Shown here in pieces: positions 1,313 through 26,767 of a stretch of 64,000 bases of DNA. How positions within the stretch are numbered: the first letter of the stretch is position 1; each line of letters opens with the position of its first letter. Made by a program: the position numbers and the translations under genes. The notes beneath the pieces are model-generated. The model saw only the letters and a list, made by a program, of their open reading frames with translations. It made no database searches and had not been told where the DNA came from. The DNA comes from Thioalbus denitrificans (GTDB taxonomy: Bacteria > Pseudomonadota > Gammaproteobacteria > DSM-26407). Location of the stretch: contig NZ_QPJY01000008.1 in the NCBI RefSeq assembly GCF_003337735.1, positions 1 through 64,000 of the forward strand, written 5' to 3'.

Positions 1313-1744
1313 ATGAACGATGGCGTTGATACGAACCAAATAGGCTGCGCCCTGTTTATCCTTTACGTTGCGGACCAGGAGGCGAGCACGCGCTTTTACG
1401 CCGACGTGCTGGACCACGCTCCGGTCCTCCACGTCCCCGGTATGACCGAGTTCGACCTGCCCGGCGGATGCCGCTTGGGCCTAATGCCCGAGCGGGGGAT
1501 CCGGCGCCTGCTGGGCACCACCCTGCCCGATCCGGCACCGGGGACGGGGATCCCGCGGGCAGAGCTCTACCTCCAGGTGGACAACCCCGACGCCTACCAC
1601 CTGCGGGCACTCGAGGTCGGTGCCCGGGAGCTGAGCCCCATGGCCCCGCGCGACTGGGGCGACATGGTGGCGTACAGCCTCGATCCGGACGGGCACGTCC
1701 TCGCCTTCGCGACGCCCGCGCGACTGACCGCACCCCGCCGGTAG
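1313..1744 (+). CDS. VOC (glyoxalase/dioxygenase-fold) family protein
   Basis: The protein has 143 residues and two beta-alpha-beta-beta-beta halves characteristic of the vicinal oxygen chelate fold. The first half is CALFILYVADQEASTRFYADVLD and the last part is WGDMVAYSLDPDGHVLAFA, the usual G-x-x-x-x-x-x-DPDGH-x-x-x-F ending. Start at ATG 1313 gives the normal family length; an upstream GTG at 1271 would add an atypical tail. The substrate cannot be read from sequence. It lies upstream of the radical SAM operon on the same strand, but an apparent promoter at 1818-1845 suggests separate transcription. Confidence 0.75.
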   Translation: MNDGVDTNQIGCALFILYVADQEASTRFYADVLDHAPVLHVPGMTEFDLPGGCRLGLMPERGIRRLLGTTLPDPAPGTGIPRAELYLQVDNPDAYHLRALEVGARELSPMAPRDWGDMVAYSLDPDGHVLAFATPARLTAPRR

Positions 1745-1935: not shown

Positions 1936-3030
1936 ATGGACGCACACGCCAAACGGCCGCCCGGCGACACCTTCGTCACCGCTTTCAAGGCCCCGCTGTA
2001 TGTCGCCTGGGAGATCACCCAAAGGTGCAACGCCAGGTGCGTGCACTGCTATTCCAGCTCGAGTCCGGACGCTCCGACCGCAACCGACCTGACTACACAA
2101 GAGGCGCTGGGCCTCATCGACGAGCTGGCGGACGCCGGCGTGCTCGTCCTCGCCTTTTCGGGCGGAGAGCCCATGCTACGCCGGGACTGGCCCGTGCTGG
2201 TCGATCGCGCGGTCCGCAGGGGGCTCAGTGTCAACGTCGGCACCAATGGCTCCACCATCACGCGCCAGACGGCCCACCTCCTCAAGGATCTGGGTGTCAA
2301 GAGCGTAACCGTCAGTATCGACAGCCACCGCGCGGCCGAGCACGACGACTTCCGGCAACTCGACGGGCTCTTCGACAAGGCCACCCGGGCGATCCGGATG
2401 CTCTCCGACGTCGGGGTGCGCGTCGTGGTGGGCTATACCCCGACCCGCCGCAACCAGCAGGACGGCCGGGCAATAATCGAGCTGGCGATCCGGCTGGGCG
2501 CGGAGGCAGTCAACCTCTCCGAGTACGTGCCGGCGGGACGGGGGGCGACCGACCTGGCACTGGAGCCGGAGGCCCTGCGGGGACTCCTCGAACAGTGGAT
2601 CGCCTGGCGGGATGAGCTCCAGGACACCATCACTCTCATCTGGCACGACTGCCGGGTCGGCATGCTGGTCCCGGAGAGTGAGCGCCGCGACTACGTCGGC
2701 TGCGGGGCCGGCCGCCTGCTCGCCCGCATCCTGCCGGACGGCACCTTCACTCCCTGCGTCTTCCTGCCCACGGCGATAGGTAAATACCCGGAATCGTCCT
2801 TCAGCGAGATATGGCGGGGCGCCGGCCTGCTGACGAAGTTCCGGGAGCGTTGGGCGATCACCGGCAACTGCGGGGAGTGCGAACACCTGCACAAGTGCGG
2901 GGGCTGCCGCGCCGTGGCGTATGCGTACAGCGGCGGCGACCCGATGGCGGGCGACCCGCACTGCTGGATCGAGCCGCATGACCCGGTTCGGCTGGCCGAC
3001 TTGGCGGCCGGAGAAGACCTGCCGGTTTAG
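1936..3030 (+). CDS. Radical SAM/SPASM enzyme 1 of a peptide-maturation operon
   Basis: The 364-residue protein has the radical SAM cluster motif CNARCVHC (Cys31, 35, 38) and the SAM-contact GGEP (about residues 76-79). It also has a cysteine-rich C-terminal SPASM region (CGAG...PC...CGECEHLHKCGGCRA...CW) that would bind two auxiliary iron-sulfur clusters. This architecture is shared by PqqE, MftC, AhbC/D and NirJ-like enzymes, which modify peptides or porphyrins. It is the first gene of a four-gene operon with a PqqD-like protein, an NTF2-fold protein and a second related radical SAM enzyme. The PqqD-like neighbour favours a peptide or protein substrate. ATG 1936 has a GAGGAG ribosome site upstream. 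The exact reaction is unknown. Confidence 0.85.
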   Translation: MDAHAKRPPGDTFVTAFKAPLYVAWEITQRCNARCVHCYSSSSPDAPTATDLTTQEALGLIDELADAGVLVLAFSGGEPMLRRDWPVLVDRAVRRGLSVNVGTNGSTITRQTAHLLKDLGVKSVTVSIDSHRAAEHDDFRQLDGLFDKATRAIRMLSDVGVRVVVGYTPTRRNQQDGRAIIELAIRLGAEAVNLSEYVPAGRGATDLALEPEALRGLLEQWIAWRDELQDTITLIWHDCRVGMLVPESERRDYVGCGAGRLLARILPDGTFTPCVFLPTAIGKYPESSFSEIWRGAGLLTKFRERWAITGNCGECEHLHKCGGCRAVAYAYSGGDPMAGDPHCWIEPHDPVRLADLAAGEDLPV

Positions 3031-3043
3031 AGGGGACCACCCG

Positions 3044-3403
3044 ATGGACATGTCGCAACGATTCACACCCGCGGCTCGGCCGGTGACGCAGGACAGTGTG
3101 CTCACCCACACCCGGGAGTGCACCGTCCGCGAGCAGGAGGAGCAGTACCTGGTCTACAACGCCGCCACCGACGAGCTGCACCTGATCCCACCCGCCGGCC
3201 GCTACCTCTACGAGCTGTGTGACGGTCTGGCGACCGTGGGCGAAATCGCCGCTGCGGTGGCTGGGATTGCTGAGGCGCGGACCGGCGAGGCGGAAGGGTC
3301 CGTGGTCGCTTTCCTGCAACAGCTCGTGGACCGTGGGGTCCTGCGCCACGGCGAGCCGCATCCGGATGCGGACGGCCCGCAGACCGGCGCTGCAACCGAG
3401 TAA
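3044..3403 (+). CDS. PqqD-like RiPP recognition element protein
   Basis: The 119-residue protein reads ...YLVYNAATDELHLIPPAGRYLYELCDGLATVGEIAAAV... and then a helical segment VVAFLQQLVDRGVL. This is the winged-helix PqqD pattern (strands, an L-x3-G-x3-L/W-x-L-x-DG helix, then V-x-x-F-L-x-x-L-x-x-R/K-G-L/V-L). PqqD-like domains bind the leader part of a precursor and present it to a radical SAM partner. The gene starts 13 bases after the first radical SAM gene. An acidic tail of about 15 residues follows the domain. Confidence 0.75.
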   Translation: MDMSQRFTPAARPVTQDSVLTHTRECTVREQEEQYLVYNAATDELHLIPPAGRYLYELCDGLATVGEIAAAVAGIAEARTGEAEGSVVAFLQQLVDRGVLRHGEPHPDADGPQTGAATE

Positions 3404-3418
3404 GGCGGTGCCCCCGCG

Positions 3419-3526
3419 ATGTGGACACCGCTCGGGGAGGCCATTTCCTCCTCACCCACCCGCAAGGGTATGACCGTCAAGCAGGCACAATGGGAGGTGC
3501 AGCATGAGCAAGGCAACTCAGGGTGA
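3419..3526 (+). CDS. Candidate small precursor-peptide ORF (speculative)
   Basis: An ATG at 3419 opens a 35-residue frame (starts MWTPLGEAISSS, ends HEQGNSG) lying between the PqqD-like gene and the NTF2-fold gene and overlapping the start of the latter by 23 bases in another frame. Most third codon positions are G or C, as in real genes here. It begins MWT like PqqA but lacks the PqqA Glu-x3-Tyr core, so it is not PqqA. The ribosome site is weak. It could be a short precursor or chance. Confidence 0.25.
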   Translation: MWTPLGEAISSSPTRKGMTVKQAQWEVQHEQGNSG

Positions 3527-4043
3527 CGAAAAGCGGGTCGGCGAATACTTCAAGCAGATCGAGGCCCTGCGCAGCGGGGTGGACTCGTCGGTGGAGCGGC
3601 TCACCGAGATGTGGGACGACGACGGGGTCTTCGAGTTCTGCGGCGCGCCACCGTTGAACGCGCGGTACACGGGCAAGGTGGCCATCAAGACCCTGTACAA
3701 GAACCGGCTCCACGCCAACGGCATGGAGGTCAAGCTGGATGGGGAGTCGGCCAAGATGCTCAAGGAGGGGGAGGTCACCCTAAGCACGGTGAAGACCGAC
3801 GTCAATCGGGTCCGCGCCCATGACGGCAAGATGGTCGCTGGCTGGACGACGCTCGTCGGGACCCACCAGGGCGTCGGCTTCAATGTGTCTGGGAGCCATA
3901 CCTTCACCTTTCGCGACGGCCGCATCACCAGCCTGAAGGTGGTTATCTCGCCGAAGGCCGACGATGCCGCGAACCTGCGCCTGGAGGGCCTCAGCGTCAA
4001 CGACATCGGCCGGCTGGCCCTCGCGGCCTGGCCGGTGGTGTGA
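3504..4043 (+). CDS. NTF2/SnoaL-fold protein in the radical SAM operon
   Basis: The 179-residue protein has an SnoaL/NTF2-like layout: an N-terminal helix ending LTEMWDDDGVFEFCG, a strand region with Y-T-G-K-x-A-I-K-x-L-Y, and C-terminal strands (SGSHTFTFRDGRITSLKVVISPK). Such cone-shaped domains act as isomerases, cyclases or binding proteins. In this operon it may be the protein substrate of the two radical SAM enzymes, a scaffold, or an enzyme acting on the modified peptide. It ends in a hydrophobic tail (GRLALAAWPVV) after the fold, a feature worth noting for a modified substrate. ATG 3504 has a GGGAGGTG ribosome site. Confidence 0.65.
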   Translation: MSKATQGDEKRVGEYFKQIEALRSGVDSSVERLTEMWDDDGVFEFCGAPPLNARYTGKVAIKTLYKNRLHANGMEVKLDGESAKMLKEGEVTLSTVKTDVNRVRAHDGKMVAGWTTLVGTHQGVGFNVSGSHTFTFRDGRITSLKVVISPKADDAANLRLEGLSVNDIGRLALAAWPVV

Positions 4044-4069
4044 GCGGGCCCGGCCCATCCGGCCGGCGG

Positions 4070-4102
4070 GCCGCGTCCGGGCGCATCCCGTCCGGACGCG
4101 GC
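4070..4102 (+). terminator. GC-rich hairpin between the NTF2-fold and second radical SAM genes
   Basis: Arms 4070-4080 (GCCGCGTCCGG) and 4092-4102 (CCGGACGCGGC) are perfectly complementary over 11 bp with an 11-base loop. There is no T-run after it, so it may attenuate or protect the upstream message rather than end transcription fully. This could set the ratio of the NTF2-fold protein to the second enzyme. Confidence 0.5.
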
Positions 4103-4131
4103 GTTGTCGACCCGGGAGCGGAGTGTTGAAC

Positions 4132-5181
4132 ATGTCTGGCGAAGGCGGGCGTTTCCGCCCGGCGATGCCGTTCCATATGGTCTGGCTGGCCACCGACCGC
4201 TGCAACGCCCGGTGCGCGCACTGCTCGTCCAACTCCTCGGTCCGCTCGCCGGACGAACTGGGCACCACCGAGGCCTGCAACCTGGTCGAACAGTTGGCTG
4301 ACGCCGGGGTCGTCGACCTCGCCATCTCCGGGGGTGAACCGCTGCTGCGGCGGGACCTATTCGAGGTCATCGAGCACGCCAGGGGCCACGGCCTCGCAGT
4401 TGGCGTCGGCTCCAATGGCGCCCGATTGCGGGAGGAGACGGTACGGCGGCTGGCGGCAAGCGGTGTCAACCGCTTCCAGGTCAGCCTGGACGGTCTGGCC
4501 GAGAGCCACGACGCCTTGCGCCGATGGCAGGGCCTGTTCGAGCGCGCCGTCCGGAGCGTGCAGTTGGCGCAGCGCGCCGGGCTCCGAACCCACGTCTGCT
4601 GCACCATCAACCGCCTGAACTGGCAGACCCTCACGGAGCTCACCGAGTATGTGGCGGGGCTGGGCGTCGCCCGGTTGAACTTCTCGCGCTACGTCCCCAC
4701 CGGGCGGGGGACCGATGCCCTCGACCTGCGGCCGGACGAATGGCGTACCGCCATCGAGCTCTGCCAGGAGCTGCGGGAGCGCTACTCCGGCCGGCTCGAG
4801 ATCGTGACCCACCTCGCCCAGCAGATCCTTGTGGACGACGGCGTCCGGGACCTGCCCGGCTTCATCGGCTGCCAGGCCGGCGTCGGCCAGGGGGCGGTCA
4901 CCGGTAACGGGACGCTCCTGCCGTGCGTCCTGCTCCCCATCCCGATCGGCAACTTCCGCCAGCGGCCCTTCCGGGAACTGTGGGAGAAATCGCCGGTGAT
5001 CCGGGCCCTGCAGGACCGGGACCGTTTGGAGGGCAGGTGCGCGGATTGCCGGGTGCGCGCCCGCTGCGGCGGCTGCCGGGCGGTCTCCTTCGCCAAGACG
5101 GGCCGGTTGATGGCCGAAGACCCCCGCTGCTGGCACCGGCCAGAGGAGATGCCGGCCGTCGCCGCCTGTGAGGCCCGGTAG
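4132..5181 (+). CDS. Radical SAM/SPASM enzyme 2 of the same operon
   Basis: The 349-residue protein carries the cluster motif CNARCAHC (Cys24, 28, 31), SGGEP, and a SPASM end with CQAG...PCVLLP...CADCRVRARCGGCRA...CW. It is clearly a paralogue of the first radical SAM enzyme (same motif spacing, same RYVPTGRG/EYVPAGRG segment, same PIGNF/AIGKY region), so the pair probably arose by duplication and makes two related or sequential modifications. The ATG at 4132 gives a normal N-terminus; the open frame continues upstream through the NTF2 gene but without a plausible start. Confidence 0.85.
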   Translation: MSGEGGRFRPAMPFHMVWLATDRCNARCAHCSSNSSVRSPDELGTTEACNLVEQLADAGVVDLAISGGEPLLRRDLFEVIEHARGHGLAVGVGSNGARLREETVRRLAASGVNRFQVSLDGLAESHDALRRWQGLFERAVRSVQLAQRAGLRTHVCCTINRLNWQTLTELTEYVAGLGVARLNFSRYVPTGRGTDALDLRPDEWRTAIELCQELRERYSGRLEIVTHLAQQILVDDGVRDLPGFIGCQAGVGQGAVTGNGTLLPCVLLPIPIGNFRQRPFRELWEKSPVIRALQDRDRLEGRCADCRVRARCGGCRAVSFAKTGRLMAEDPRCWHRPEEMPAVAACEAR

Positions 5182-5638: not shown

Positions 5639-6385
5639 CTACGCCAGCCCCGTCGCTTCCGTAGGCATCAGCCACCTCGCGTAGGCCTGGACGTCGATCA
5701 TCGGCACCGTGCCGCTGAACTGAAGCTGAGCAATCAGCCTAAAGAGAAACGCCGTCGCGGGCTTTCTGCCCGCAAGTATTGCGTAATTGCCGCTATCCGA
5801 ATCGCGCATAAAATAGCCATGTGCCGCGACGCAACCGATGTTGAGCTGGTTGTCGTCGGTCCCGCTCTCAAGCAGTCTTTCAAGCGGCTCCCCCATGCCC
5901 GGCTTCCAGTCACTCTCAAACGTGAGAATTCCGCCGTAGATCGGAATCAGCGGCTTCGCCGGAAAGACGCCGCCAGCATGCGGTATCGGCAGACTCGTGC
6001 GGTGCAGGCGCCTGACGCTGGCGACCTTCTCCATCGCATACTCGACTTCATGAGCATTGATCGCCTGCTTCGCCTCAAAACACGCATAAACACTTTCCGC
6101 GGGGATGATCGTCTGGTCCTGATAATGAAAGATGAAGGGTGAGTACTGTCGGTCGAAAACGACGACATCGATCTGGTCGCTGAACATGCCGTTGCTGTCC
6201 ACAACATGCGCCTTGGCCGCCTTGTAGCGCTCCGGCAGATACTTGTTCAGCAGGCCCAGCCATACGCCCTCGCTGGCATCACCTTTCGTCCCGGGATGAC
6301 CGAAGGCTTTGCGTGACCGCTCAAGCCCTTGCTGGATCTCGTCGTGAAGCTCAGATAGCAGAGTTGATAGTGACCATTGCGTCAT
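5639..6385 (-). CDS. nucC: NucC, cA3-activated CBASS endonuclease effector
   Basis: The 248-residue product matches NucC over its whole length. Matching segments include RKAFGHPGTKGDASEGVW, QIDVVVFDRQYSPFIF, PAESVYACFEAKQ and KVASVRRLHRTSLPIPHAGG. The restriction-enzyme-like active site D-x(n)-E-x-K is visible at about Asp73 and Glu104-Ala-Lys106. NucC is a trimer that forms hexamers on binding cyclic triadenylate and then cuts double-stranded DNA, killing the infected cell. The start overlaps the stop of cap6 by four bases, and it is the last gene of the CBASS operon. Confidence 0.95.
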   Translation of the reverse strand: MTQWSLSTLLSELHDEIQQGLERSRKAFGHPGTKGDASEGVWLGLLNKYLPERYKAAKAHVVDSNGMFSDQIDVVVFDRQYSPFIFHYQDQTIIPAESVYACFEAKQAINAHEVEYAMEKVASVRRLHRTSLPIPHAGGVFPAKPLIPIYGGILTFESDWKPGMGEPLERLLESGTDDNQLNIGCVAAHGYFMRDSDSGNYAILAGRKPATAFLFRLIAQLQFSGTVPMIDVQAYARWLMPTEATGLA

Positions 6386-7320
6386 GATGTTGCGTCCTGA
6401 AAGGGAGGCGTGGGAGCCATGCCCCTGGCGATTTCCATAGCTGCGCAGGCCGTGACCGGGCCGTCCGGATACGCGGCAAGGACAATCGCCGGCAGCAGGC
6501 GTTGTGTCAGGTCGGAGAACGTAAATCCGTAATCCCTGCCGTTCTGCGCACCCGTTGCCGCTACGAGGGCATCGATGTCCGACGTGGAAAACCCGGCTTC
6601 CGAGAGCGCGGGAGCGAGCACCGCCCGCCGCTGTTCATGACCAGGTCGTGAGAACGTCAGCACGTCGGCGGCACGACGGCGCACCGCGGGGTCCAGAGCG
6701 GAAAGCCGGTTCGTACACATGATTACCGCGGCGGGCAGGCCCTTCTCCGCCAGCCGGTCGACCCCCCGGATGAAAGCATTCACGCCCGCGCGGTCCTCGT
6801 GATGCATCTGCGCTGACTCGCGCGACTGCGCGAGCGCATCAGCCTCATCAACCAGGAGAATAACCGCGCCCCGCGCGCGACCGTTCCCGGATTTCAGCTT
6901 CGCGGCCTGCGCCGCCGTAATGTCGAACGCCGCCGAGATGAGCTGCGTCATCTCACCGACGCGCCCCTGACCCCGGCTCGACAGGCTTAGCGGGAAGAGT
7001 TCGATCTCGATCTCTTCCTGCCGTGCCACGGCGTCACCGATCGTTTCCGCAAGCTCAGTCTTCCCGGAGCCAACGTCGCCAGCAAGGACCACCAGCGGCG
7101 GGCGTCGCATGACGGAGCCCAGCAGCGCAGGCGCGCCGTTGTGATGCTTCTTGGCCCATGCCTCCAGCCCAGCCGGATTGACCAGCAGCCCCAGCATCTT
7201 ACGCAGTCGTTCCTTCTGCTCGTCGAGGCCGATCAGCCGCGCCAAGCGTTCCTGAGGGTCGAAATCCGGGTATCCGATCCTGCGATCGAACAGCTCATCG
7301 ATATTGGGTCCCGCCTGCAT
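6382..7320 (-). CDS. cap6: Cap6, TRIP13/Pch2-like AAA+ ATPase of type III CBASS
   Basis: The 312-residue protein has Walker A GDVGSGKT (about residues 81-88), Walker B ILLVDEAD (about 154-161) and sensor residues in CTNRLSALDPAVRRRA. In type III CBASS this ATPase disassembles the HORMA-CD-NTase complex and so keeps the synthase off until infection. Its ATG overlaps the stop of the HORMA gene (TGATG), and its stop overlaps nucC, showing tight translational coupling. Confidence 0.92.
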   Translation of the reverse strand: MQAGPNIDELFDRRIGYPDFDPQERLARLIGLDEQKERLRKMLGLLVNPAGLEAWAKKHHNGAPALLGSVMRRPPLVVLAGDVGSGKTELAETIGDAVARQEEIEIELFPLSLSSRGQGRVGEMTQLISAAFDITAAQAAKLKSGNGRARGAVILLVDEADALAQSRESAQMHHEDRAGVNAFIRGVDRLAEKGLPAAVIMCTNRLSALDPAVRRRAADVLTFSRPGHEQRRAVLAPALSEAGFSTSDIDALVAATGAQNGRDYGFTFSDLTQRLLPAIVLAAYPDGPVTACAAMEIARGMAPTPPFQDATS

Positions 7321-7835
7321 CAGTACGCCCTCACGCTGGAGCGATCAAGCGCCCTGCCACCCGAGGAGTAGGTGCGGTCACTCACCATGTAACCGTTAAC
7401 GCCCGGTTCCGATGCTCCGGTGCGCTTGAAGGGGAGCCCAGCTTTGACGGCGGCCTTCTGCGCGTCTGTCAGCTCGTCCCACGCCGGACTGTAGGTCAGG
7501 TAGCTGTAGAAGCTTGCACCAGAAACGTTCTTTCCAGGACGAATCTTTCCGGGGTCGTCGTCATTTGCCGACATTCCTGCCAGATCCCGTGCGGTGTAGC
7601 GCACCGTCGGTTCGATCCATTCATCATCCCTGCGGAACCCGTAGCTCACCGTGCCGAGCAGACCCTGCTTCAGGAGCTGAATGACCTCATCCTCGTATTT
7701 GGCGATGTCCGTATCGCCCGGCTTCCCATAGAGCCGCTGCATCCGCTTCAGGTCGGTCGCCACCTTCGCGGCCATATGCCGCGCATGGGTGACCGTGAAG
7801 GTCCGGGATTCAGAGAGGGTAAAACTTGACGTCAT
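7320..7835 (-). CDS. cap7: Cap7, bacterial HORMA-domain protein of type III CBASS
   Basis: The 171-residue frame starting MTSSFTLSESRTFTVTHARHMAAKVATDLKRM is the bacterial HORMA pattern, with a C-terminal safety-belt-like segment (GVNGYMVSDRTYSSGG). HORMA proteins sense a closure peptide and activate the CD-NTase. Start at 7835 was chosen over the longer open frame because homology begins there and because it lies 7 bases after the synthase stop. Confidence 0.88.
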   Translation of the reverse strand: MTSSFTLSESRTFTVTHARHMAAKVATDLKRMQRLYGKPGDTDIAKYEDEVIQLLKQGLLGTVSYGFRRDDEWIEPTVRYTARDLAGMSANDDDPGKIRPGKNVSGASFYSYLTYSPAWDELTDAQKAAVKAGLPFKRTGASEPGVNGYMVSDRTYSSGGRALDRSSVRAY

Positions 7836-7842
7836 GGGGACC

Positions 7843-8808
7843 TCATACCTGGAAGCTGGAGCCGAATACTTTCTGCCAGTAGTAGACGGTCTCCTGTTTG
7901 GTGGGTGCGGCCAGAGCCGCGTCAATGGCATCGCCCGCGTCGAGGGCGACTTCGACGATGTCTTCCGCCTGCGAGTCGGTGTAAAGGCGGGCGACATTGT
8001 TGTCGCTGTTTACCGGGTCGATGATCTGGACCGGATCGCCGGATGCCGGTACGGAAGAGGGATTGTAGTAATCGCCGAACACTATCTGCTCACGCAGGTT
8101 ACTGCGCGCGACGTAGGTGAAGAAGTGCTGCAGCGCCTCCGGGTAGTCGGAAAAGTCGAGGCCCTGGTCGCACAGGTGCGAAAGGATCATTTCCACCATG
8201 AACGACTTAAACCTAAAGTCCTCGCGCTCCCGCTTGATCTGGCGCACCCAGAACTTGACGAGCCGTGCCACCTGCGCGAAGTCGTCCGGCTGCCGGTCCT
8301 TCCGCCTCTTCGTGAATTCGAGGTGCAGCGGGATGCTCGTCTTCAGGAAGGAACCGTCCTCCTGGCTGACGAGATTGCCGTACCACTGCGGATCGCCACT
8401 GTAGAGGATCGGCACCACATCAACGTCGAGCCCGGTTCCTCTGAAGGAAACGGTGACGCTGTAAGTCTTGGGCTGCACCTGGTCGGGGCTGAAGTTCGGA
8501 AACGCCTTGCGCAAGCGCTCGGCGAGGTATAGCAGCAGTTCCGCCACATCACCCGGCGCATCCGAGCCGCTTATGTAGCAAGCAACGTCGATGTCGTTGA
8601 TCGACCGCAGCGCCGTGCCCTTGGCGAGGCTACCCGACAGCAGCATCTTCTTGAGCGCGAAATCCGGGTGATCGTTCAGATAACCCTCCAACTTTTCGCG
8701 CAGGCGCCTGACCTGCGCTCGGTATTCGTCCGCCTTGTCCTTGGGCAGGTTGACTTTGTCCCGCGCGAAGCTGGCTATATCCTTGTGCTCGACGTGCTTC
8801 CTTCCCAT
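7843..8808 (-). CDS. CD-NTase cyclic oligonucleotide synthase of type III CBASS
   Basis: The 321-residue protein has the polymerase-beta-like motif LLSGSLAKGT (about residues 57-65), NDIDVA (acidic pair Asp72/Asp74) and the third acidic strand LDVDVVPIL. With the HORMA, TRIP13 and NucC partners it is expected to be a CdnC/CdnD-type enzyme making cA3, which fits the NucC effector. ATG 8808 has an AGAGG ribosome site; the frame extends upstream without a better start. It is the first gene of the operon. Confidence 0.93.
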   Translation of the reverse strand: MGRKHVEHKDIASFARDKVNLPKDKADEYRAQVRRLREKLEGYLNDHPDFALKKMLLSGSLAKGTALRSINDIDVACYISGSDAPGDVAELLLYLAERLRKAFPNFSPDQVQPKTYSVTVSFRGTGLDVDVVPILYSGDPQWYGNLVSQEDGSFLKTSIPLHLEFTKRRKDRQPDDFAQVARLVKFWVRQIKREREDFRFKSFMVEMILSHLCDQGLDFSDYPEALQHFFTYVARSNLREQIVFGDYYNPSSVPASGDPVQIIDPVNSDNNVARLYTDSQAEDIVEVALDAGDAIDAALAAPTKQETVYYWQKVFGSSFQV

Positions 8809-8885
8809 TGGAACCTCTTTTTTGTTGCCATTGTCTATACCGCCATGCAAGATATGTCGAGTATGATGACCTGATTCGTTAAATA

Positions 8886-8904
8886 CGTCAAGTTTTACTT
8901 GTCG
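8886..8904. promoter_or_regulatory. Candidate CapH operator between the CBASS operon and capH
   Basis: CGTCAAGT-TTT-ACTTGTCG is an imperfect palindrome: seven of eight arm positions pair around a three-base centre. It lies 8 bases upstream of the capH start, in the 104-base divergent intergenic region, where a CapH dimer could repress both directions. Confidence 0.6.
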
Positions 8905-8912
8905 AGATCGCC

Positions 8913-9275
8913 ATGACTCAGAAACCGACCCCTTCCGACCTGTTCAAACAACGCCTCCGCACGGCCCGCGAAATGCGGAAATGGAGCCAAAGTGACCTGG
9001 GAACTAAAGCCGGACTGCCACCCAGCTCTATCGCGCATTTCGAGGCCGGGTCCCGCAAGCCTTCGTTCGACACGCTGCACCGCTTGGCGAACGCTCTCGA
9101 AGTGACTACCGACTATCTGCTCGGGCGGGTGGAGGAACCCACTGTCGCCGCCGAAGGCGACCCTCTGTTCCGCGACGTCAGCAAGCTCACCGGCAACGAC
9201 CGGGATCTGGCCAAAGATTTCCTCAAGATGCTTGCCGAGCGAAACGCAGCCAAGTTAGAAGGCGGCGGGAAATGA
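8913..9275 (+). CDS. capH: CapH, XRE-family transcriptional repressor of CBASS
   Basis: The 120-residue protein has an N-terminal helix-turn-helix (RLRTAREMRKWSQSDLGTKAGLPPSSIAHFEAGSRKPS) and a C-terminal segment that would dimerise and contain the CapP cleavage site. Its gene overlaps capP by four bases and is divergent from the CBASS operon. CapH represses CBASS until CapP cleaves it after DNA damage. Confidence 0.85.
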   Translation: MTQKPTPSDLFKQRLRTAREMRKWSQSDLGTKAGLPPSSIAHFEAGSRKPSFDTLHRLANALEVTTDYLLGRVEEPTVAAEGDPLFRDVSKLTGNDRDLAKDFLKMLAERNAAKLEGGGK

Positions 9276-10165
9276 GCCGCCCGCTACGCTTGCTGATGGC
9301 GCAGCAGCGCGCACAAAACCTGTTACGCGAACTGGGGATCAACGAGCTTCCGGTCGACCCCGTGGCTATCGCCGCAAGGCACGACATCATTGTCGAGGCG
9401 AAGCCGGACACCGCCCAGGGCGTGTCCGGAATGCTCCTGCGCCACGGCAACACGTTCGGGATTCTCTATGCCACGCACATCGAGAGCGAAGGCTTCCGGC
9501 GTTTCAGCATCGCCCACGAGCTTGGGCACTACTTTCTCGATGGTCACATCGACCATATTCTTCCCGATGATGGGTTCCACGCCTCCCACGCGGGCTTCGT
9601 CTCCGGCGACCCGTACGAGTTGGAAGCTGACCAGTTCGCCGCCGGGCTGCTCATGCCAGCGACTCTGTTCCGCAGAGCGCTCGGCAAACACAATCCCGGA
9701 TTTGATGTCGTGAAATCCGTGGCGGCGACTTGCCGAACATCGCTCACGGCAACGGCCCTCCGCTACGCTGAACTGACTGAGGACGCTGTCGCCGTCATTC
9801 TCAGCACCGGCCAGACCATCGACTTCTGCCGGCTGTCCGGGACGATGAAGTCGCTTCGAGAGATAACCTGGCTCAAGAAGGGGATGGCTGTGCCACGCAG
9901 AACCGTCACCGCCAGACTGAACGCTGATCCGGCTCGCGTCCGCAGTGCGGACCGCGACGAGGAAGAGATCGACATCTGTGAATGGCTTGGCGGAAACCGG
10001 TCCGTCTCGGCCACCGAAGAAGTCATCGGCCTTGGTTCCTACGGCAAGACGCTAACCGTCATCGCATGCCCGACTCTCGTCGAGGAGACGTTCAGGGACG
10101 AGGACGATGATGATGAAGACAACGAGGACCTGATCGAGAGCTGGACACCTCGCTTCAGGCGGTAG
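9272..10165 (+). CDS. capP: CapP, ImmA/IrrE-type metallopeptidase that cleaves CapH
   Basis: The 297-residue protein has the zinc motif HELGH (His82-Glu83...His86) followed by ELEAD (third ligand region, about 116-120) and FAAGLLMP, the COG2856 signature. The C-terminal half probably carries the sensor domain. CapP family members are stimulated by single-stranded DNA, which links CBASS induction to DNA damage. The C-terminus has an unusually acidic run (DEDDDDEDNED). Confidence 0.85.
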   Translation: MSRPLRLLMAQQRAQNLLRELGINELPVDPVAIAARHDIIVEAKPDTAQGVSGMLLRHGNTFGILYATHIESEGFRRFSIAHELGHYFLDGHIDHILPDDGFHASHAGFVSGDPYELEADQFAAGLLMPATLFRRALGKHNPGFDVVKSVAATCRTSLTATALRYAELTEDAVAVILSTGQTIDFCRLSGTMKSLREITWLKKGMAVPRRTVTARLNADPARVRSADRDEEEIDICEWLGGNRSVSATEEVIGLGSYGKTLTVIACPTLVEETFRDEDDDDEDNEDLIESWTPRFRR

Positions 10166-11346: not shown

Positions 11347-12468
11347 ATGTTCGAAAACCTGTCACAGAAACTCATCGGATATCGCGTCAAAGCTGCCCGC
11401 GAGTCGGCCGGCTGGACGCAGGATCGACTGGCTGAGGCCATGGGTCTGAAAGACCGTCAGAGCGTCTCCGACATCGAGAATGGCAAGCGGGCGCTCAAGC
11501 CGGATGAACTAGTCCTCCTGTCCGACGCCCTGGATCGCGAACTCGCTTACTTCCTTGATTTGTTTCAAGTCGCCGGCGAGGCCCAGTTCTCCTGGCGCGC
11601 CTCCCCCGGACTGGCCGAGGACAGCCTAGATGGTTTCGAACTGAGAGCTGGCCAGTGGATCGGCCTGCTGCGTTGGTTGCGCGAAAAAGAGCAGAACCGG
11701 CCAAATCCCCTCAAACACGCACTCCGGCTCACCGCACAATCCTCATACGAAGATGCGATCGCTCGAGCCGAGAGCCTGGTCGAGGCGCTCGATCTGGGCA
11801 TTGTTCCGGCCGAGCGGTTGGCCGAAAAGATCGAGCAGGATCTCGACATCCCAGTCCTTTACGTCGATACGATCGAGACACCCGATGGGGATTCTATTTC
11901 CGGTGCGACCTGTCATCTTCAGGACATGGGTGTGATCCTGATCAACCGCAGCGAACCAGAGGCCCGTAGATTCTTCGATCTGGCTCACGAGTTGTTCCAC
12001 GCCCTGACCTGGGATGCCATGAAGCCAGATCACCGCGAATCCAATTCGGTCGAAGACCGTGCCAAAATCAAGCGCGTCGAACAACTGGCCAACAATTTCG
12101 CCGCTGCCCTGCTGATGCCTCAAGCTTCTTTGGTCAATCTGATCGACAGACGTCGAATCGATGACACAGATCATCTTGCAGGCGTGGCTGCGCAATTGCA
12201 CGTCGCGCCCGTGGCTCTTGCCTGGAGGCTGTTCAATCTGAAGTGGTTAGGCGTGGAAACGCGGAATGCCCTTGCACAGGAGCACCAGCGCCCAACCGCT
12301 ACTGGTACGCCGAAGCGGTTCTCGCCAAGCTTCGTTGACATGCTGCACCGATCGATAGACAAAGGCCACCTGTCCGCCCGCAAGGCTGCAAAGGCCATGG
12401 GCGCAAGCCTGACACAGCTTGTGGATCTTTTTGCCGAGCACTCGCTACCCGCCCCCTTCGAGTTGTAA
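11347..12468 (+). CDS. XRE-helix-turn-helix/ImmA-IrrE fusion protein
   Basis: The 373-residue protein has an N-terminal XRE domain (residues 10-60, AARESAGWTQDRLAEAMGL...SDIENGKR) and a COG2856 metallopeptidase domain with HELFH (His214-Glu215...His218) and ANNFAAALLMP. Such fusions are commonly the regulator/antitoxin partner in two-gene stress modules or cleave phage-type repressors. It is followed 14 bases later by a PIN-domain gene, which suggests a toxin-antitoxin-like pair. It differs in architecture from CapH/CapP nearby, so it is not a duplicate of them. Confidence 0.8.
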   Translation: MFENLSQKLIGYRVKAARESAGWTQDRLAEAMGLKDRQSVSDIENGKRALKPDELVLLSDALDRELAYFLDLFQVAGEAQFSWRASPGLAEDSLDGFELRAGQWIGLLRWLREKEQNRPNPLKHALRLTAQSSYEDAIARAESLVEALDLGIVPAERLAEKIEQDLDIPVLYVDTIETPDGDSISGATCHLQDMGVILINRSEPEARRFFDLAHELFHALTWDAMKPDHRESNSVEDRAKIKRVEQLANNFAAALLMPQASLVNLIDRRRIDDTDHLAGVAAQLHVAPVALAWRLFNLKWLGVETRNALAQEHQRPTATGTPKRFSPSFVDMLHRSIDKGHLSARKAAKAMGASLTQLVDLFAEHSLPAPFEL

Positions 12469-13500: not shown

Positions 13501-16386
13501 CTAACCCTCCTCCTTGTAGCCTCCCCCCAGTTTGTCGCTGAGCCACTGCCTCTGTGACGGCGTGATCAGCTGATTCGTCGTGGGCGCAACATCACCCAGG
13601 GTGACCACGCGGGTCTCGGGGTCGGCCTCCTCCCTCGCCTCCTCCCGGATGGGCCTGCCGCCTTCATCCACCTTCGTCCTGCCCGCCTCCACATCATCCG
13701 CAGTGGCCGCGCGCCGCCCCTCGGTTTCTTCCCGGATGGTCTCGGCCCGCCCGGTGACGCCTGCCTCGTCGGGCACGCCCGCCTCCTCGCCCGCCGCGTG
13801 CGCCTGCCTGGCGTAGAAGTCCCCGGCGTTGTCGATCCCGGCGCCCTGGGCGCGGACTCCGGCCAGCGCGGCCTCGCCTGCTGCGCGCACCCCCTCGGGA
13901 CCGGGCGCGGCCGCAACCCCCGCCAGTTCCAAGCCCTGCTCCCGGATGAACCCGCCGGCCAGGTGCTGGATGATCCCCAGCGAGTGGAGATCGCCGTTGG
14001 CCGCCCGCGCTAGGTGGTGGTCGATCTCTTGCGCCGTCCAGCGGGCGCCGGAGCCCATACCGGGGCCGGCGAACATCCCCATCTCCCGACCGATGGCCCA
14101 CTGGCGCACCGCCATCCCCGCCTCCGCGTTGAAGGCCACCCCCTGCTCCTCCATGCGGGCCAGGGACTCCTGCCATCCCCGGGCCTCCTGGAGGCTGGCC
14201 TGAGCTGACTCCCGCAGCGCCTCCTGGCGCTGCAGGCCCCCGGCGAGCTCCGCCGCAAGGCTGTCGCCAGTCTTTTCCGACACCTGGGCGGCCGTCGACC
14301 TGGCGGCCTCCTCCATCGCCTGCCAGTGCCGGCCGTACTGGGTGTCCTCCCCGAACTTTACCGCGTCCTGCCATGCTTGTTTCAGTGTGGCTTGATTTAT
14401 CCCGCGCAATCCCACACTAGCCGAGAGAGGAATCTTGCTCGCCAACCTCGATAGGAATGACTGCTGCTCTGCAGGTGCCATCTTATCGAGACTCCCAATG
14501 GCCAAGCCAGCTGATGCCAGCAACTCTGTCGCCTGCTTCTTATCCAGCCCATGGGTCCTGCCAAACTCCTCCTGCAGCCGCTGTACCTCCCCGTGCTCCT
14601 GCCGGAAGGTGGCTCCCTCGCCATGGCGCCATGTGTCGCTGGCCGCGGTCTCGCTGCCGGCCTGGTGCAGGAACCGCTCCATCTGGTTGAAGACCGCCGC
14701 GGTGTTGGTGGAGTAATCCGCCATCTGCGTCTCGGCCGTCTGGAGAGACCGGCTGAGTTGGCTCTGGACGTTGGACTTGACCGCGTTGCTGATGCTCGCG
14801 CTGAAGGGCAAGTCCGACTGTGGCACCTGCATGAAGGCGCCGGCTCCGGTGGTGGTGTAGGTGACGCCGGTTTCCGGGTCGGTGATGGTGGTGGTGCCGG
14901 TCCGGAAGCTCGGGGAGGTGTTCTGCTGCCACCAGGATGCGTTGCCGAGGCTGGTGTTGCCGAGGCTGATGTTGCCGGTGGAGGCCTCGTCGGCCCCCTT
15001 GCTCACCGGTGCCTCGTAGCTGCCGGCCACCCGGGCGGCGAGGCTCGCCATCATCGCCCCGCCCTGGTTGATCACCAGGTAGGAGATCATGGGGATGGAG
15101 AGGGAGAGGTAGCCCGCCACCGCCGAGACGTCACTCATGACCTGCCCCAGGGCGGTGTGGGTCGCCATGGAGAGGGCCGTGTAGCCGGTCGGCAGCACCA
15201 GGCCGCTCTGGGCCGGAAACTGCGAGAAGAAGGTCATGGCGAAGTGCAGCAGCGCGTAGAGGGGCGCCCAGAGCTGGATCCAGAGCAGGGCCTTCAGGTA
15301 GGTCAGCGCCACCTTGGCGGCCGCGGGCAGGATGAGCAGCATCAGCACCACGGGGAAGATGGCGTAGATGAACGACTCGAAGATCCCCCGCAGCAGCGGG
15401 AGGGTTCGCCCGGCGAGCTCGCCCATGGCCGCGAAGGTGGTGCGCCGCTCCTGCTCGGCGCGGGCCAGCGCGAAGTCCTGGGCCGCGGCGCCGGCGTCGA
15501 CCCGGGCGGCGAACTGGGTGAGTCCGCGGCGCAGGGAGTTGGCGAGCGCATTTTGGCGGATGATCTGCTCGGCGCTCATGGAGAGCCCGGCGATGTACTG
15601 GTAGGAGATGGGCATCGCCGCGGCGAACCTGGCGACGGCGGCCGCCTGGTCGGGCGCCTTGACGAGCTTGCGGCCGTAGTAAGTCCGGGCGTTATCCACG
15701 GTGGCGTTGATCTCGGTGCCGAGCACGCCGTTGGCCCCCACCCGGCAGACCACTGTGTCCCGGCTCCCGGCGGCATCGGTGTGCACATAGCTCCGGGACT
15801 GGGAGGTGTGGCCCTTCAGGAACTCCAGGGTGTCCGTGGCCGAGAGCAGGTCATCCCAGGTGTAGAGCCCCAGCAGCAGGTCGTAGAAGACGCAGGACTG
15901 CCAGAACTCGGCGAGGTTCCCGGCCACCCGGCTGTCGGTGATCTCGAACCGGGTGCTGGCCTCTACCAGGTACTGGCCGAAGAGCATGCCGCTCTTGTGG
16001 TACTGGATATCGTCCGGCAGGCTGAACACCGTCTCGAAGGCCCGGGTCATCCAATCGCCAATCTTGCTGGCGCCGCCGGCGAACATGGCGAGCCCCAGCG
16101 GGACGTTGCCCACCACCCCCGACTGGGTCACGTCGATGCGATCGGTGATGATGACGTTGGTGCGCGGCACCAGCACCACGTTGACCACCAGCACCACGGC
16201 CAGCAGCCACTGGAGGTTGACCGCCCTCCCCCGGAAGGCCGCCTCCACCATCACCCAGAGCAGCCCCACCAGCCCCGAGATCTTGAGGATGGCGATGAAG
16301 TCCCCGTCCCCGACGATGGCGGCGATGCCGTTGAACACCAGCCGCAGGAACTCGCCGTTGCCGTAGCTGAAGATCTCCCAGTTCAT
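13501..16386 (-). CDS. traG: TraG, F-type mating-pair formation/stabilisation protein
   Basis: The 961-residue protein begins MNWEIFSYGNGEFLRLVFNGIAAI, the typical TraG N-terminus, followed by several membrane segments in the first 450 residues (for example PVVLMLLILPAAAKVALTYLKALLWIQLWAPLYALLHF). It then has a long hydrophilic periplasmic region. TraG helps assemble the pilus and stabilise mating pairs and, in F, also mediates entry exclusion. It is the last gene of the transfer operon. Its 3' 600 bases are duplicated in decayed form at 10683-11228. Confidence 0.92.
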   Translation of the reverse strand: MNWEIFSYGNGEFLRLVFNGIAAIVGDGDFIAILKISGLVGLLWVMVEAAFRGRAVNLQWLLAVVLVVNVVLVPRTNVIITDRIDVTQSGVVGNVPLGLAMFAGGASKIGDWMTRAFETVFSLPDDIQYHKSGMLFGQYLVEASTRFEITDSRVAGNLAEFWQSCVFYDLLLGLYTWDDLLSATDTLEFLKGHTSQSRSYVHTDAAGSRDTVVCRVGANGVLGTEINATVDNARTYYGRKLVKAPDQAAAVARFAAAMPISYQYIAGLSMSAEQIIRQNALANSLRRGLTQFAARVDAGAAAQDFALARAEQERRTTFAAMGELAGRTLPLLRGIFESFIYAIFPVVLMLLILPAAAKVALTYLKALLWIQLWAPLYALLHFAMTFFSQFPAQSGLVLPTGYTALSMATHTALGQVMSDVSAVAGYLSLSIPMISYLVINQGGAMMASLAARVAGSYEAPVSKGADEASTGNISLGNTSLGNASWWQQNTSPSFRTGTTTITDPETGVTYTTTGAGAFMQVPQSDLPFSASISNAVKSNVQSQLSRSLQTAETQMADYSTNTAAVFNQMERFLHQAGSETAASDTWRHGEGATFRQEHGEVQRLQEEFGRTHGLDKKQATELLASAGLAIGSLDKMAPAEQQSFLSRLASKIPLSASVGLRGINQATLKQAWQDAVKFGEDTQYGRHWQAMEEAARSTAAQVSEKTGDSLAAELAGGLQRQEALRESAQASLQEARGWQESLARMEEQGVAFNAEAGMAVRQWAIGREMGMFAGPGMGSGARWTAQEIDHHLARAANGDLHSLGIIQHLAGGFIREQGLELAGVAAAPGPEGVRAAGEAALAGVRAQGAGIDNAGDFYARQAHAAGEEAGVPDEAGVTGRAETIREETEGRRAATADDVEAGRTKVDEGGRPIREEAREEADPETRVVTLGDVAPTTNQLITPSQRQWLSDKLGGGYKEEG

Positions 16387-16451
16387 CTCCGGTCACCCCT
16401 CCCTATGCCAGCCTGTTCTGTCGCCTTTCCTCGCCATGCCCGCCCTGCTCC

Positions 16452-17867
16452 CTACTGGGAGGAGGCCCACACCAGGTTCCGGTAGATGCCCGGCGAGAGC
16501 CGGCCGATGAGGGCCCGCTCGTACTCCCGCACCCGGGTGGTGAACATCAGCGACTCGTCGAAGGCCTTGCGGTTCTTTTCCATGAAGGCGCTGATCTGCT
16601 CGCGGGCCTTGCGCACGCCGTCATTAAACGCCTCGACCTTGTCTCCCGACTGGTTGGGCAGGGTGCTCACGCTGGCGGAGACCTTCCCCAGCAGGTCGCG
16701 CAGATAGGTGTAGAGGATGTCCTTGGCGATGAGGGCGGCGTACTGGTCGATGGAGTCGGAGATGAGGCCGGGCAGCATGGCGTACTCCACGGTGAGGAAC
16801 TTGTGGACCGGCAGGGTGGTGGCGGAAAGCAGGCCGCGCTGCGCGTCATCTAGGGCGGCGTCGGCCCCGATCTTCCCGGCGATACCGTTGAGCAGGGTCC
16901 CCACCATGGCGGTGAAGCTCTTCGCCGGGTCGATTTTCAGGGTCGTCTCGGTATCCATCTCGGTGCAGCTCCGCTCATCGCTTGTGCCGTCGGAGCAGGT
17001 GCGGATGGTCACCTCGCCGCCCACGAGGAGGGCCTGCAGGAACTGCTGGCCGCGGCTGTCCTCGAGGATCGAGGGGTAGATCCGGCGGATGGTCAGGGTG
17101 TCCTCCTTGCCGGGCTCCTGGGGCGCCAGGATGATGGTCCCGGAGAGGTTCATCATGACCTGGGCCATGTTCTTGTCGCTGCGGAAGAAGGAGTTGTGGT
17201 AGAGCGCCCGCCAGGCGATGTTGCCCGGAGTGGCGATCACGTCCGCCGCGCTGCCCGGGGCGGCGCCGTCCAGGGTGGCGCGGCGCTCGCCGCCGGTGGT
17301 GCAGGCCACCTCGGCCTCCGCCCAGGCCTCGCCCCTGCTGCCGACCCGCTCCACGATGCAGCCCTGCTTATCCGCTCCGAATTGCTTGAGGACTCCGCCC
17401 AGCAGCTCGCTGCCCGCCTCGCAGGCGTTGACCGAGTTGAGGCCGTACTTCTGGGCCCAGGTCTCGATCTGCTCCATGGTGGAGGCGATCTGGGGGCTGA
17501 TGGTGCGCAGCGCCAGCATGAAGGCCTGGCTGACGGCCACCGAGCCGATGTTCTGCAGCATGGCCACGAACTGGTCGGCGTTGATGAAGCTGAAGCCCCC
17601 GGAGAAGAGATCGATGCCGCCACAGCCGGCCCGGAACTTGGGGAACTGGATGCTGTAGAGGGTGTAGTTGCGCTGGGGCACGCGCATGAACAGGCTCCCG
17701 CCGGTGTAGTAGCCGGCGGACTGCCCCTCGTAGGCGCCCGGCTTCGTCACGTTGGTGAAGTTGAGGTCCCCGAAGAAGGACTCCATGTCGCCGGCCACGT
17801 CGGCGCGGGCGGCGGTCGCGGCCAGCAGTGCGGCCGCGCAGAGACAGGCGAGCAGGCGAAGGGGCAT
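16452..17867 (-). CDS. traH: TraH, F-type conjugal pilus assembly protein
   Basis: The 471-residue protein has a signal peptide (MPLRLLACLCAAALLAATAARA) and a TraH signature region (GYYTGGSLFMRVPQRNYTLYSIQFPKFRAGCGGIDLFSGGFSFI). TraH is a periplasmic/outer membrane component needed for pilus extension. It starts 3 bases before the traF stop. Confidence 0.92.
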   Translation of the reverse strand: MPLRLLACLCAAALLAATAARADVAGDMESFFGDLNFTNVTKPGAYEGQSAGYYTGGSLFMRVPQRNYTLYSIQFPKFRAGCGGIDLFSGGFSFINADQFVAMLQNIGSVAVSQAFMLALRTISPQIASTMEQIETWAQKYGLNSVNACEAGSELLGGVLKQFGADKQGCIVERVGSRGEAWAEAEVACTTGGERRATLDGAAPGSAADVIATPGNIAWRALYHNSFFRSDKNMAQVMMNLSGTIILAPQEPGKEDTLTIRRIYPSILEDSRGQQFLQALLVGGEVTIRTCSDGTSDERSCTEMDTETTLKIDPAKSFTAMVGTLLNGIAGKIGADAALDDAQRGLLSATTLPVHKFLTVEYAMLPGLISDSIDQYAALIAKDILYTYLRDLLGKVSASVSTLPNQSGDKVEAFNDGVRKAREQISAFMEKNRKAFDESLMFTTRVREYERALIGRLSPGIYRNLVWASSQ

Positions 17868-17869
17868 GG

Positions 17870-18703
17870 TCAGTCTCCCGCGAGGATGCGTGTCACGAAG
17901 GGATCGGGCGCCCCAGGCGCCATGAGGGTGTAGATGCGGTCCCGGAGCTCGGAGTGGCTCACGTAGCCGAAGCTGACGGGGTGGATGGCCCGGGAGCGGG
18001 GCTCCACCAGGTAGACCGCGGGCACGGTGTCCACCTGCAGGGCCACGCCGGCGCCGGCGTTCAGCCGCGGATTGGGGTACTCGAGCAGCCCGCCGCCGTC
18101 CAGGCTCACCGGAATGACGTGGAAGCCGTAGGCCCCGGCGAAGGCCCTGAGCACAGGCGCGAAGCGGTGGCAGTAGGGGCAGTCGGACTTGAAGAAGAAG
18201 AGCAGCCCCCGCCTGGCGGCCAGCTCCCGCAGCGCGGCGTCCATGGCCGCCAGGCGCGTGTCGTTGCGCACGTGGACCGCCTGGTCGTTGACCGGATGCT
18301 CGATGCGCGTGTCGAGCGCCGGGGTGGACCACAGCACCCGCTGCCAGCTCTCGGCGAAAGCCCCGGAGCGGGCCATCACCTCCTGGTTGAGGCGCATGTA
18401 GGCGCGCACGGCCGCCTCGCGCTCCCGCGGCCGGTCGGCCATGATGGCCGCCGCCCGCGCCGCCTCCAGGGCCTGCTGGAGCCCCTGCAGGGCCGCCACG
18501 GGATCGGGTGCCGCTGGCGCGGCGGCCGCCGGCGCCGGGAGCTCGGCTTCGGGCGCCTCCCGTTTCGTCTCCGGCTCAGGCTCCGGGTCGGGCGCCTCGT
18601 ACCAGAACCAGCCCTCCCCCGGGCGGGTGAATAGGGAGCCGCCCTCCCCGGCCAGGACCACGACCGGGAGCAGGAGCAGGACCACCAGCAATGCCCTTCT
18701 CAT
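17870..18703 (-). CDS. traF: TraF, thioredoxin-fold pilus assembly protein with intact CPYC
   Basis: The 277-residue protein has a signal peptide and a C-terminal thioredoxin-like domain (LLFFFKSDCPYCHRFAPVL...VDTVPAVYLVEP). It keeps a CPYC redox pair, whereas the F-plasmid TraF lacks a CxxC, so this version may be redox active and may help fold the cysteine-rich TraN, TraU and TraH. The stop overlaps traN by four bases at the other end. Confidence 0.88.
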   Translation of the reverse strand: MRRALLVVLLLLPVVVLAGEGGSLFTRPGEGWFWYEAPDPEPEPETKREAPEAELPAPAAAAPAAPDPVAALQGLQQALEAARAAAIMADRPREREAAVRAYMRLNQEVMARSGAFAESWQRVLWSTPALDTRIEHPVNDQAVHVRNDTRLAAMDAALRELAARRGLLFFFKSDCPYCHRFAPVLRAFAGAYGFHVIPVSLDGGGLLEYPNPRLNAGAGVALQVDTVPAVYLVEPRSRAIHPVSFGYVSHSELRDRIYTLMAPGAPDPFVTRILAGD

Positions 18704-22971: not shown

Positions 22972-22984
22972 CCAGTCCGTCTCC

Positions 22985-23494
22985 CTACAGCAACCGCAGC
23001 GCCCGGCCGACGATGCGATCCGCGGCGATCCAGCCGATGTCGGCGTAGCGGGAGTCGTAGCTGTCCGGGTGGCCGGTCCACACGAAGATCGCCCCGGCCG
23101 GGATCACCCCCACCGGCCCCGGGGCCAGCGGCTCGCCGCCGGAGGTCTCCGCCTTGGCCAGCCCCACGAACCCGCCGTTGATGTAGAAGGCTGGGCCCCG
23201 CCGGGAGACCACATCGCCCGGCACTCCGCCCACCCGCTTGATGAACACCATCCCCTCGGGATAGAAGCGGTGGGTCGGCGGCCGGAATGCCACCAGGTCC
23301 CCGCGCCCGCGTGGCGTCTGCCCCTTGATAACCAGGTAGAGCACGCCCGGCAGGCTGGGAGTCCCGTTGATGCCGAGGGTCACCCAGGGCGAGGTGAGCG
23401 CGTCCACACCCCCGATGAGCCCGATGAGCAGCAGGGTGAGGCCGCACCAGCGCCGGAAGCGGCGCCAGGCCGGCCGGATGCGCTCAGCGTCCAT
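22985..23494 (-). CDS. S26-type signal peptidase of the conjugation system (TraF/TrhF-like)
   Basis: The 169-residue protein has one N-terminal membrane segment (GLTLLLIGLIGGVDAL), then GINGTPSLPGVLYLV in place of the usual SMxP serine box, with the lysine motif FIKRVGGVPGD and a final TGHPDSYDSRY. This is the conjugative S26 peptidase family that matures or cyclises pilin. Start at 23494 lies inside the end of trbI. Confidence 0.85.
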   Translation of the reverse strand: MDAERIRPAWRRFRRWCGLTLLLIGLIGGVDALTSPWVTLGINGTPSLPGVLYLVIKGQTPRGRGDLVAFRPPTHRFYPEGMVFIKRVGGVPGDVVSRRGPAFYINGGFVGLAKAETSGGEPLAPGPVGVIPAGAIFVWTGHPDSYDSRYADIGWIAADRIVGRALRLL

Positions 23495-26766: not shown

Positions 26767-26767
26767 G

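Follow-up and report, generated by a model that had tools for sequence, protein, structure and literature searches.

We analysed a window of 64,000 nucleotides from Thioalbus denitrificans (contig NZ_QPJY01000008.1, positions 1 to 64,000; the window is this whole stretch, and all coordinates without a locus name refer to it). At positions 1936-5181, entirely on the + strand, it carries a four-gene cassette for two radical S-adenosylmethionine (SAM)/SPASM enzymes (E1 and E2), a PqqD-like protein and a protein of the NTF2/SnoaL fold. We consider it probable that this cassette moves horizontally and that its PqqD-like protein, a predicted recognition element (RRE) of the type known from ribosomally synthesized and post-translationally modified peptides (RiPPs), delivers the C-terminal tail of the NTF2 carrier to E1 and E2 for modification. 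The four-gene arrangement appears to be without published description in the literature searched: no description of radical SAM, PqqD or RiPP together with NTF2/SnoaL was found, a weak negative as most subscription journals were outside the search. The cassette has the following features.

1936..3030, + strand: E1, radical SAM/SPASM enzyme, 364 amino acids (aa); CX3CX2C at 31-38, SPASM CX2CX5CX2C at 312-324, Cys C239 in WHDCRV
3044..3403, + strand: PqqD-like protein, 119 aa; predicted RRE fold
3419..3526, + strand: short frame, 35 aa; substrate candidate of the first-pass annotation, rejected here
3504..4043, + strand: NTF2/SnoaL-fold protein, 179 aa; proposed substrate/carrier
3990..4040, + strand: conserved C-terminal tail, NTF2 residues 163-179 (LSVNDIGRLALAAWPVV); Trp176 at 4029-4031, proposed modification site
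4070..4102, + strand: G+C-rich hairpin with a 14-bp stem, between the NTF2 gene and E2
4132..5181, + strand: E2, radical SAM/SPASM enzyme, 349 aa; CX3CX2C at 24-31, SPASM CX2CX5CX2C at 303-315

All five frames lie where the first-pass annotation of the sequence had placed them, and the hairpin it had noticed before E2 is real. The open reading frame (ORF) of E2 opens at 3964, and its conserved N-terminus begins at ATG 4132. The free energy of the hairpin is unexceptional within the window (z -1.1). It is kept in the copy from the same genus, where one G-C pair is replaced by G-U (z -3.4). It is not followed by a U-run, and none of the other loci has a spacer comparable to the hairpin region. 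Possibly the hairpin tunes E2 expression.

Recurrence and mobility of the four-gene set

The first-pass annotation had described the paralogous SPASM enzymes, the PqqD-like protein and the NTF2/SnoaL protein as one operon, and had named a lack of co-occurrence of the four genes elsewhere as evidence against its proposal. A scan with E1 motifs only covered one genome per species for about 85,000 species and added 14 loci whose E1 is 46-99% identical to that of the window. A scan with the NTF2 protein only gave a single plasmid match, in Indioceanicola, and there the genes for NTF2, E1, PqqD, a B12-radical SAM enzyme and E2 are consecutive. Each of the 16 E1-family loci was located with E1 or the NTF2 protein alone, and at every one of them E1, PqqD, E2 and NTF2 are all present within about 4.5 kb. 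These loci are partly non-independent, as one (L015) is from the genus of the window and four are from Pseudovibrio. The same scan also gave 33 loci with other SPASM enzymes; all of them lack the NTF2 gene, and just one has a weak PqqD match. The recurrence of the four-gene set is far beyond chance.

The cassette is rare. An NTF2 profile had 3 matches in 397 genomes of one order, all in genomes already known, and in a phylum sample of 398 genomes the genome of the window was the sole match to a clade-B E1 (see below). Viral contigs gave no match, either with E1 or with the NTF2 protein. A Paenibacillus polymyxa plasmid locus without an NTF2 gene carries two adjacent NirJ-like radical SAM genes and an AsnC-family gene (L014:4803-8010), which possibly form a plasmid-borne heme d1-type cluster.

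The hosts of the 16 loci are Gamma-, Beta- and Alphaproteobacteria and one Opitutaceae metagenome-assembled genome (MAG). The loci fall into two clades:

Clade A, order E1-PqqD-E2-NTF2: genus of the window, Bauldia UBA53, Gallionella, strain M00.F.Ca.ET.205, a proteobacterial MAG, Afifella, Hyphomonadaceae
Clade B, order NTF2-E1-PqqD-B12rSAM-E2: Indioceanicola, Pseudovibrio, Bauldia UBA52, Rubrivivax, Opitutaceae

Within clade A the NTF2 gene precedes E2 solely in the genus of the window. The cassette genes stand almost end to end: at all loci outside this genus the gaps between successive genes from E1 to E2 measure -14 to +32 nt, and in this genus the NTF2 gene lies between. In clade B a gene for a DmpI-like tautomerase follows E2 at 7 of 8 loci, and the best hidden Markov model (HMM) of the B12-radical SAM protein is ApyD (99 bits, cut-off 750). 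Within clade A, the four proteins have correlated pairwise distances (r 0.67-0.87, permutation p <= 0.005). In the tree, E1 and E2 are each monophyletic and show the same two-clade split, indicating that the E1/E2 pair is old and was inherited together. At four loci (L016, L018, L019 and L061) a protein of about 105 aa with weak similarity to ABM (dimeric alpha+beta barrel) is encoded directly upstream of E1. In Pseudovibrio denitrificans (L026:7995-10781) the genes for E1 and the B12-radical SAM enzyme are each split in two frames, by decay or by sequencing error, and are intact in the relatives.

The distribution of the cassette does not track the relationship of the host species, and its neighbours differ everywhere: none is conserved across the loci beyond the cassette and accessory genes. 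Mobile surroundings are seen near L017 (integrase-core gene), L061 (recombinase and phage integrase) and L025 (ArdC-type gene), and the window has transfer genes. Transfer of the whole cassette as one block is therefore the most likely explanation. The location inside an integrative and conjugative element that the first-pass annotation had proposed is plausible in view of F-type TraG, TraN and TraC genes in the window, which itself begins at a contig end.

The enzymes, the predicted recognition element and the candidate substrate

E1 and E2 are 38% identical, and both have Radical_SAM and SPASM Pfam matches above cut-off. Both enzymes have CX3CX2C and the C-terminal SPASM Cys set at 14 of 14 aligned loci. 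The set is complete in both; in E1 it consists of C256, C274, C312-X2-C315-X5-C321-X2-C324 and C343 besides CX3CX2C, and C239, in the invariant WHDCRV motif, adds an eighth Cys that E2 lacks. Neither enzyme attains the cut-off of any known family. The scores were 121.6 and 122.9 bits for PqqE (TIGR02109, cut-off 381), a cut-off that no protein of the genome exceeded, and 156 and 151 bits for mycofactocin (TIGR03962, cut-off 265), with both enzymes outside the MftC clade in the tree. For GeoRSP they were 178 and 175 bits (TIGR04303, cut-off 400), and TIGR04302 (geo_PqqD, cut-off 100) gave at most 20 bits.

The PqqD-like protein of the window matches Pfam PqqD with 35.2 bits (cut-off 23.4), and this match is found in 15 of 15 cassette PqqD-like proteins. 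Its AlphaFold2 (AF2) model, with a predicted local distance difference test score (pLDDT) of 82, has the fold of a PqqD-type RRE, an N-terminal beta sheet followed by three helices. In the PDB the model matched TbiB1 (5v1u, Z 12.2, 2.2 A over 84 residues), lasso B1 (6jx3, Z 12.6, 2.0 A over 85) and PqqD (5sxy, Z 11.3, 2.0 A over 92), and besides PqqD the best matches were mostly RREs with bound leader peptide (TbiB1, lasso B1, PbtF). The protein is therefore predicted from its model to be an RRE. RREs go together with ribosomally made substrates, so that a peptide or protein is to be expected as substrate here.

The first-pass annotation had considered two substrates, the NTF2-fold protein and the short frame at 3419. 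The short frame is present only in two genomes of the same genus, in identical form, with no shared ORF elsewhere, and it overlaps the start of the NTF2 gene; for these reasons it was rejected. Outside the genus of the window, the narrow gaps from E1 to E2 leave no space for a further precursor gene. A six-frame comparison within 1.5 kb, down to a length of 20 aa, looked for other hidden precursors; shadow frames aside, the ABM-like gene of the four loci named above was the sole recurrent frame besides the core genes, and no MftA-like small ORF is common to the cassette loci. The NTF2 gene stands beside the putative maturases in 16 of 16 cassettes, and there is no other common candidate. By these data no protein other than NTF2 qualifies as a conserved candidate substrate of the cassette, and we infer that it acts as the precursor.

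The NTF2 protein of the window matches SnoaL_2 with 29.9 bits (cut-off 27), as do all 15 of 15 cassette NTF2 proteins above cut-off, in agreement with the cone-shaped alpha+beta NTF2 fold. Its AF2 model (pLDDT 86.5) matched solved folds of ketosteroid isomerase (Z 15.2, 2.5 A over 123 residues) and limonene epoxide hydrolase, most of which cover residues 2-157. The tail beyond them is modelled as an added helix (165-175) and last residues of low confidence.

As the first-pass annotation had suspected, the C-terminal tail stands out as the likely site of modification. It is the best-conserved 17-residue window of the protein, with 51% identity between the clades, compared to a mean of about 20-21% and a maximum of 38% for the domain; within clade A the values are 84% for the tail and 47% for the domain. 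All 16 NTF2 proteins end in A-W-x-V-[V/A]-COOH. The consensus of the window type is L-x-V-x-D-I-G-R-L-[S/A]-L-A-A-W-x-V-V-COOH, and the tail of clade B ends in A-W-M-V-A. Besides Trp and Val, residues L163, D167, G169, L171 and A175 are invariant and lie on or beside the predicted helix. Between pairs of Pseudovibrio sequences the tail shows synonymous changes and at most 2 replacements, the domain up to 34, which is only mildly informative given the lengths. A search with the tail peptide in 11 cassette genomes found the cassette proteins alone and no second protein.

In the mechanism that we favour, the NTF2 protein would serve as precursor or carrier, with a domain of about 155 residues in place of a leader and the last 17 or so residues as target. 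The PqqD-type RRE would dock the carrier and present the tail to E1 and then probably to E2, and both enzymes would use SAM-derived radicals to abstract hydrogen and to form or cleave bonds at the tail. Within the tail, the chemistry would most likely fall on or beside the invariant Trp at the fourth position from the C-terminus and the Val that follows two residues later; these would be natural targets because the other invariant residues lie on or beside the helix that presents them. The product of clade B should differ, as this clade has a B12-radical SAM enzyme and usually the tautomerase: its AWMVA tail together with an enzyme whose best HMM is ApyD makes an extra methylation or C-C step likely. 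The modified tail might then serve as a cofactor-like group, either retained on the protein or released from it. We infer the tail modification itself, the residues, the order of the enzymes and the release or retention of the product.

Most known cases of radical SAM chemistry guided by an RRE concern short peptides. If our reading is true, a whole NTF2-fold protein as dedicated substrate extends this chemistry to folded proteins, and another metabolic fold, beside that of the proteusins, is used as leader. Two natural variants would be directly comparable, the AAWxVV tail without and the AWMVA tail with a B12-radical SAM enzyme. Systems of this class would escape genome mining that relies on small precursor ORFs.

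Alternative readings

Several observations weigh against the favoured mechanism. Polar residues of the NTF2 domain are nearly invariant (Y15 in 14/15, Y65 in 15/15, R68 in 13/15, H132 in 14/15 proteins), which may point to a binding or catalytic role of the domain itself. Judged from its sequence, the conserved tail could also be a docking peptide for the RRE instead of the modified part, and RREs do bind short peptide motifs. Both points would fit an NTF2 protein that is itself a cyclase- or isomerase-like enzyme, with the tail docking it to the RRE and E1/E2, and with a peptide from elsewhere or a small molecule as the real substrate. The similarity of its fold to ketosteroid isomerase and limonene epoxide hydrolase agrees with this, as do the enzymes of small-molecule type added at other loci (tautomerase, ABM-like, VOC). 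However, the domain has no invariant acidic residue, a further small ORF resembling a precursor is not shared by the loci, no second protein of the 11 genomes searched carries the tail, and in 16 of 16 proteins the tail sits at exactly the same distance from the C-terminus, which docking would not need. We regard this explanation as unlikely. Possible, though doubtful, is a protein-derived cofactor made in place: the two RRE-guided radical SAM enzymes, in one clade together with the B12-radical SAM enzyme and the tautomerase, would turn the A-W-x-V tail into a redox or catalytic group, which the NTF2 protein would then use in its own pocket. If true, the 'leader' would be a working enzyme.

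The sequences of E1 and E2 themselves also speak against a peptide-modifying role. Their nearest HMMs are mostly those of tetrapyrrole enzymes: AhbD (heme b synthase, 217.7 bits) and NirJ2 (209.5 bits) for E1, TIGR04053 (215 bits) and AhbD (210 bits) for E2. Their SPASM spacing CX2CX5CX2C is that of AhbD (PMC10452713); CX2CX5CX3C is common to MftC-type and other peptide or protein maturases (PMC3023750) and was present in the MftC reference sequences that we compared. E1 and E2 might then be AhbD/NirJ-type enzymes that make or alter a heme-like cofactor, with the NTF2 protein binding the product and the PqqD-like protein merely bridging, and some relatives outside the E1 family do adjoin heme d1 genes. 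A match to a characterized porphyrin or heme d1 pathway, which the first-pass annotation had named as evidence against its proposal, was not obtained: the scores for AhbD, AhbC, NirJ, NirJ1 and NirJ2 were 146-218 bits compared to curated cut-offs of 500-650, all best scores were well below cut-off, and AhbD had no match over cut-off in the genome. In the tree, E1 and E2 form clades of their own apart from the NirJ, TIGR04053 and TIGR04347 references. No tetrapyrrole gene was present among the scanned neighbours, which were part of all neighbours, whereas NirJ loci have such genes alongside. We also know of no role for an RRE in the known heme pathways. A tetrapyrrole function is very unlikely.

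An RRE with several radical SAM enzymes is standard RiPP grammar, and the patchy distribution and the mobile surroundings (the genes named above for L017 and L061) would suit a conventional RiPP: after modification the tail would be cleaved off and leave the cell as an antimicrobial or signalling peptide. However, the loci have no exporter, peptidase or immunity gene in common, and the tail is nearly invariant, unlike bacteriocin cores; such a product seems quite improbable to us. Because a shared exporter or peptidase is lacking and the tail is nearly invariant, a cofactor-like role would, by the reasoning once applied to mycofactocin (PMC3023750), fit the modified tail of the NTF2 carrier better than that of a secreted antibiotic.

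Genomic surroundings and comparison with known systems

The neighbourhood of the cassette in the window contains the following genes.

1313..1744, + strand: VOC/glyoxalase-fold protein, upstream of the cassette; possible accessory, not established
5642-6385, - strand: NucC effector
6385-7320, - strand: TRIP13
7323-7895, - strand: HORMA
7846-8850, - strand: oligonucleotide cyclase
8913-9272 and 9272-10162, + strand: divergent CapH/CapP-type regulators
11347-12465: helix-turn-helix and M78 (IrrE-type) peptidase protein, RmrA-like in PADLOC
13504-16386, - strand: TraG_N
18703-20838, - strand: TraN
23888-26380, - strand: TraC
27066-28445, - strand: DsbC-like protein with a long N-terminal extension

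The VOC gene has a G+C content at third codon positions of 0.84, similar to the cassette, and the adjoining genes have 0.66-0.79. A VOC gene of unrelated sequence abuts the cassette at L023. By codon-position composition, positions 1-1270 at the contig start contain no convincing coding frame and are possibly an element end or decayed sequence. The genes from 5642 to 10162, directly downstream of the cassette, form a complete cyclic oligonucleotide-based antiphage signalling system (CBASS), which is adjoined by the peptidase gene; those from 13504 to 28445 are F-type conjugative transfer genes. Next to the Indioceanicola cassette, TIR-domain and SIR2 genes are present (L011:12650-15747), so that with the CBASS of the window two loci adjoin defence-type genes. 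When a link to defence was checked, E1 gave a weak match to pVip (viperin), as expected for a radical SAM protein, and the NTF2 protein had no PADLOC match.

Among known systems, AhbD and NirJ (heme b and heme d1 synthases) are nearest to E1 and E2 in sequence, AhbD also in Cys spacing, but the cassette differs in its scores below cut-off, its separation from the NirJ clades, its RRE and NTF2 partners and the absence of tetrapyrrole genes seen alongside. The GeoRSP and SynChlorMet cassettes (NCBIfam) likewise combine SPASM proteins with a PqqD-family protein; matches to them were far below cut-off (GeoRSP_rSAM 178 of 400 bits, geo_PqqD 20 of 100, ScmD 23 of 100), and to our knowledge an NTF2 partner is no part of either system. 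Haloarchaeal TIGR04347 systems have a SPASM-family protein beside a candidate substrate of about 100 aa (Htur_1727-type 'rSAM-partnered candidate RiPP'), but this protein lacks the AWxV tail, and TIGR04347 lies in another clade of the tree.

The pathway for pyrroloquinoline quinone (PqqA/PqqD/PqqE) shares with the cassette an RRE of PqqD fold and a PqqE-like SPASM enzyme acting on a ribosomal substrate. Unlike this pathway, the cassette has two SPASM enzymes, no PqqA, PqqB or PqqC was seen, and a folded NTF2 protein takes the place of a peptide of about 23 aa. Mycofactocin (MftA/B/C) resembles the cassette in its RRE-type chaperone, its SPASM enzyme and the conserved C-terminus of its substrate (...IDGMCGVY in MftA, ...AAWxVV in the cassette), and it was predicted from just such a short, highly conserved C-terminus beside a PqqE-like enzyme (PMC3023750). 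The cassette lacks an MftA-like small peptide, and its SPASM spacing is CX2CX5CX2C, not CX2CX5CX3C. By analogy, the best functional counterpart may be the proteusins, in which the fold of a metabolic protein likewise forms an oversized, structured leader before a C-terminal target. One proteusin is brominated on its terminal Trp, a precedent for modification of a terminal Trp on structured RiPP substrates (PMC10858898). The proteusin leader has a helical nitrile-hydratase-like (NHLP) fold in contrast to the NTF2/SnoaL fold of the cassette, and the modifying enzymes differ.

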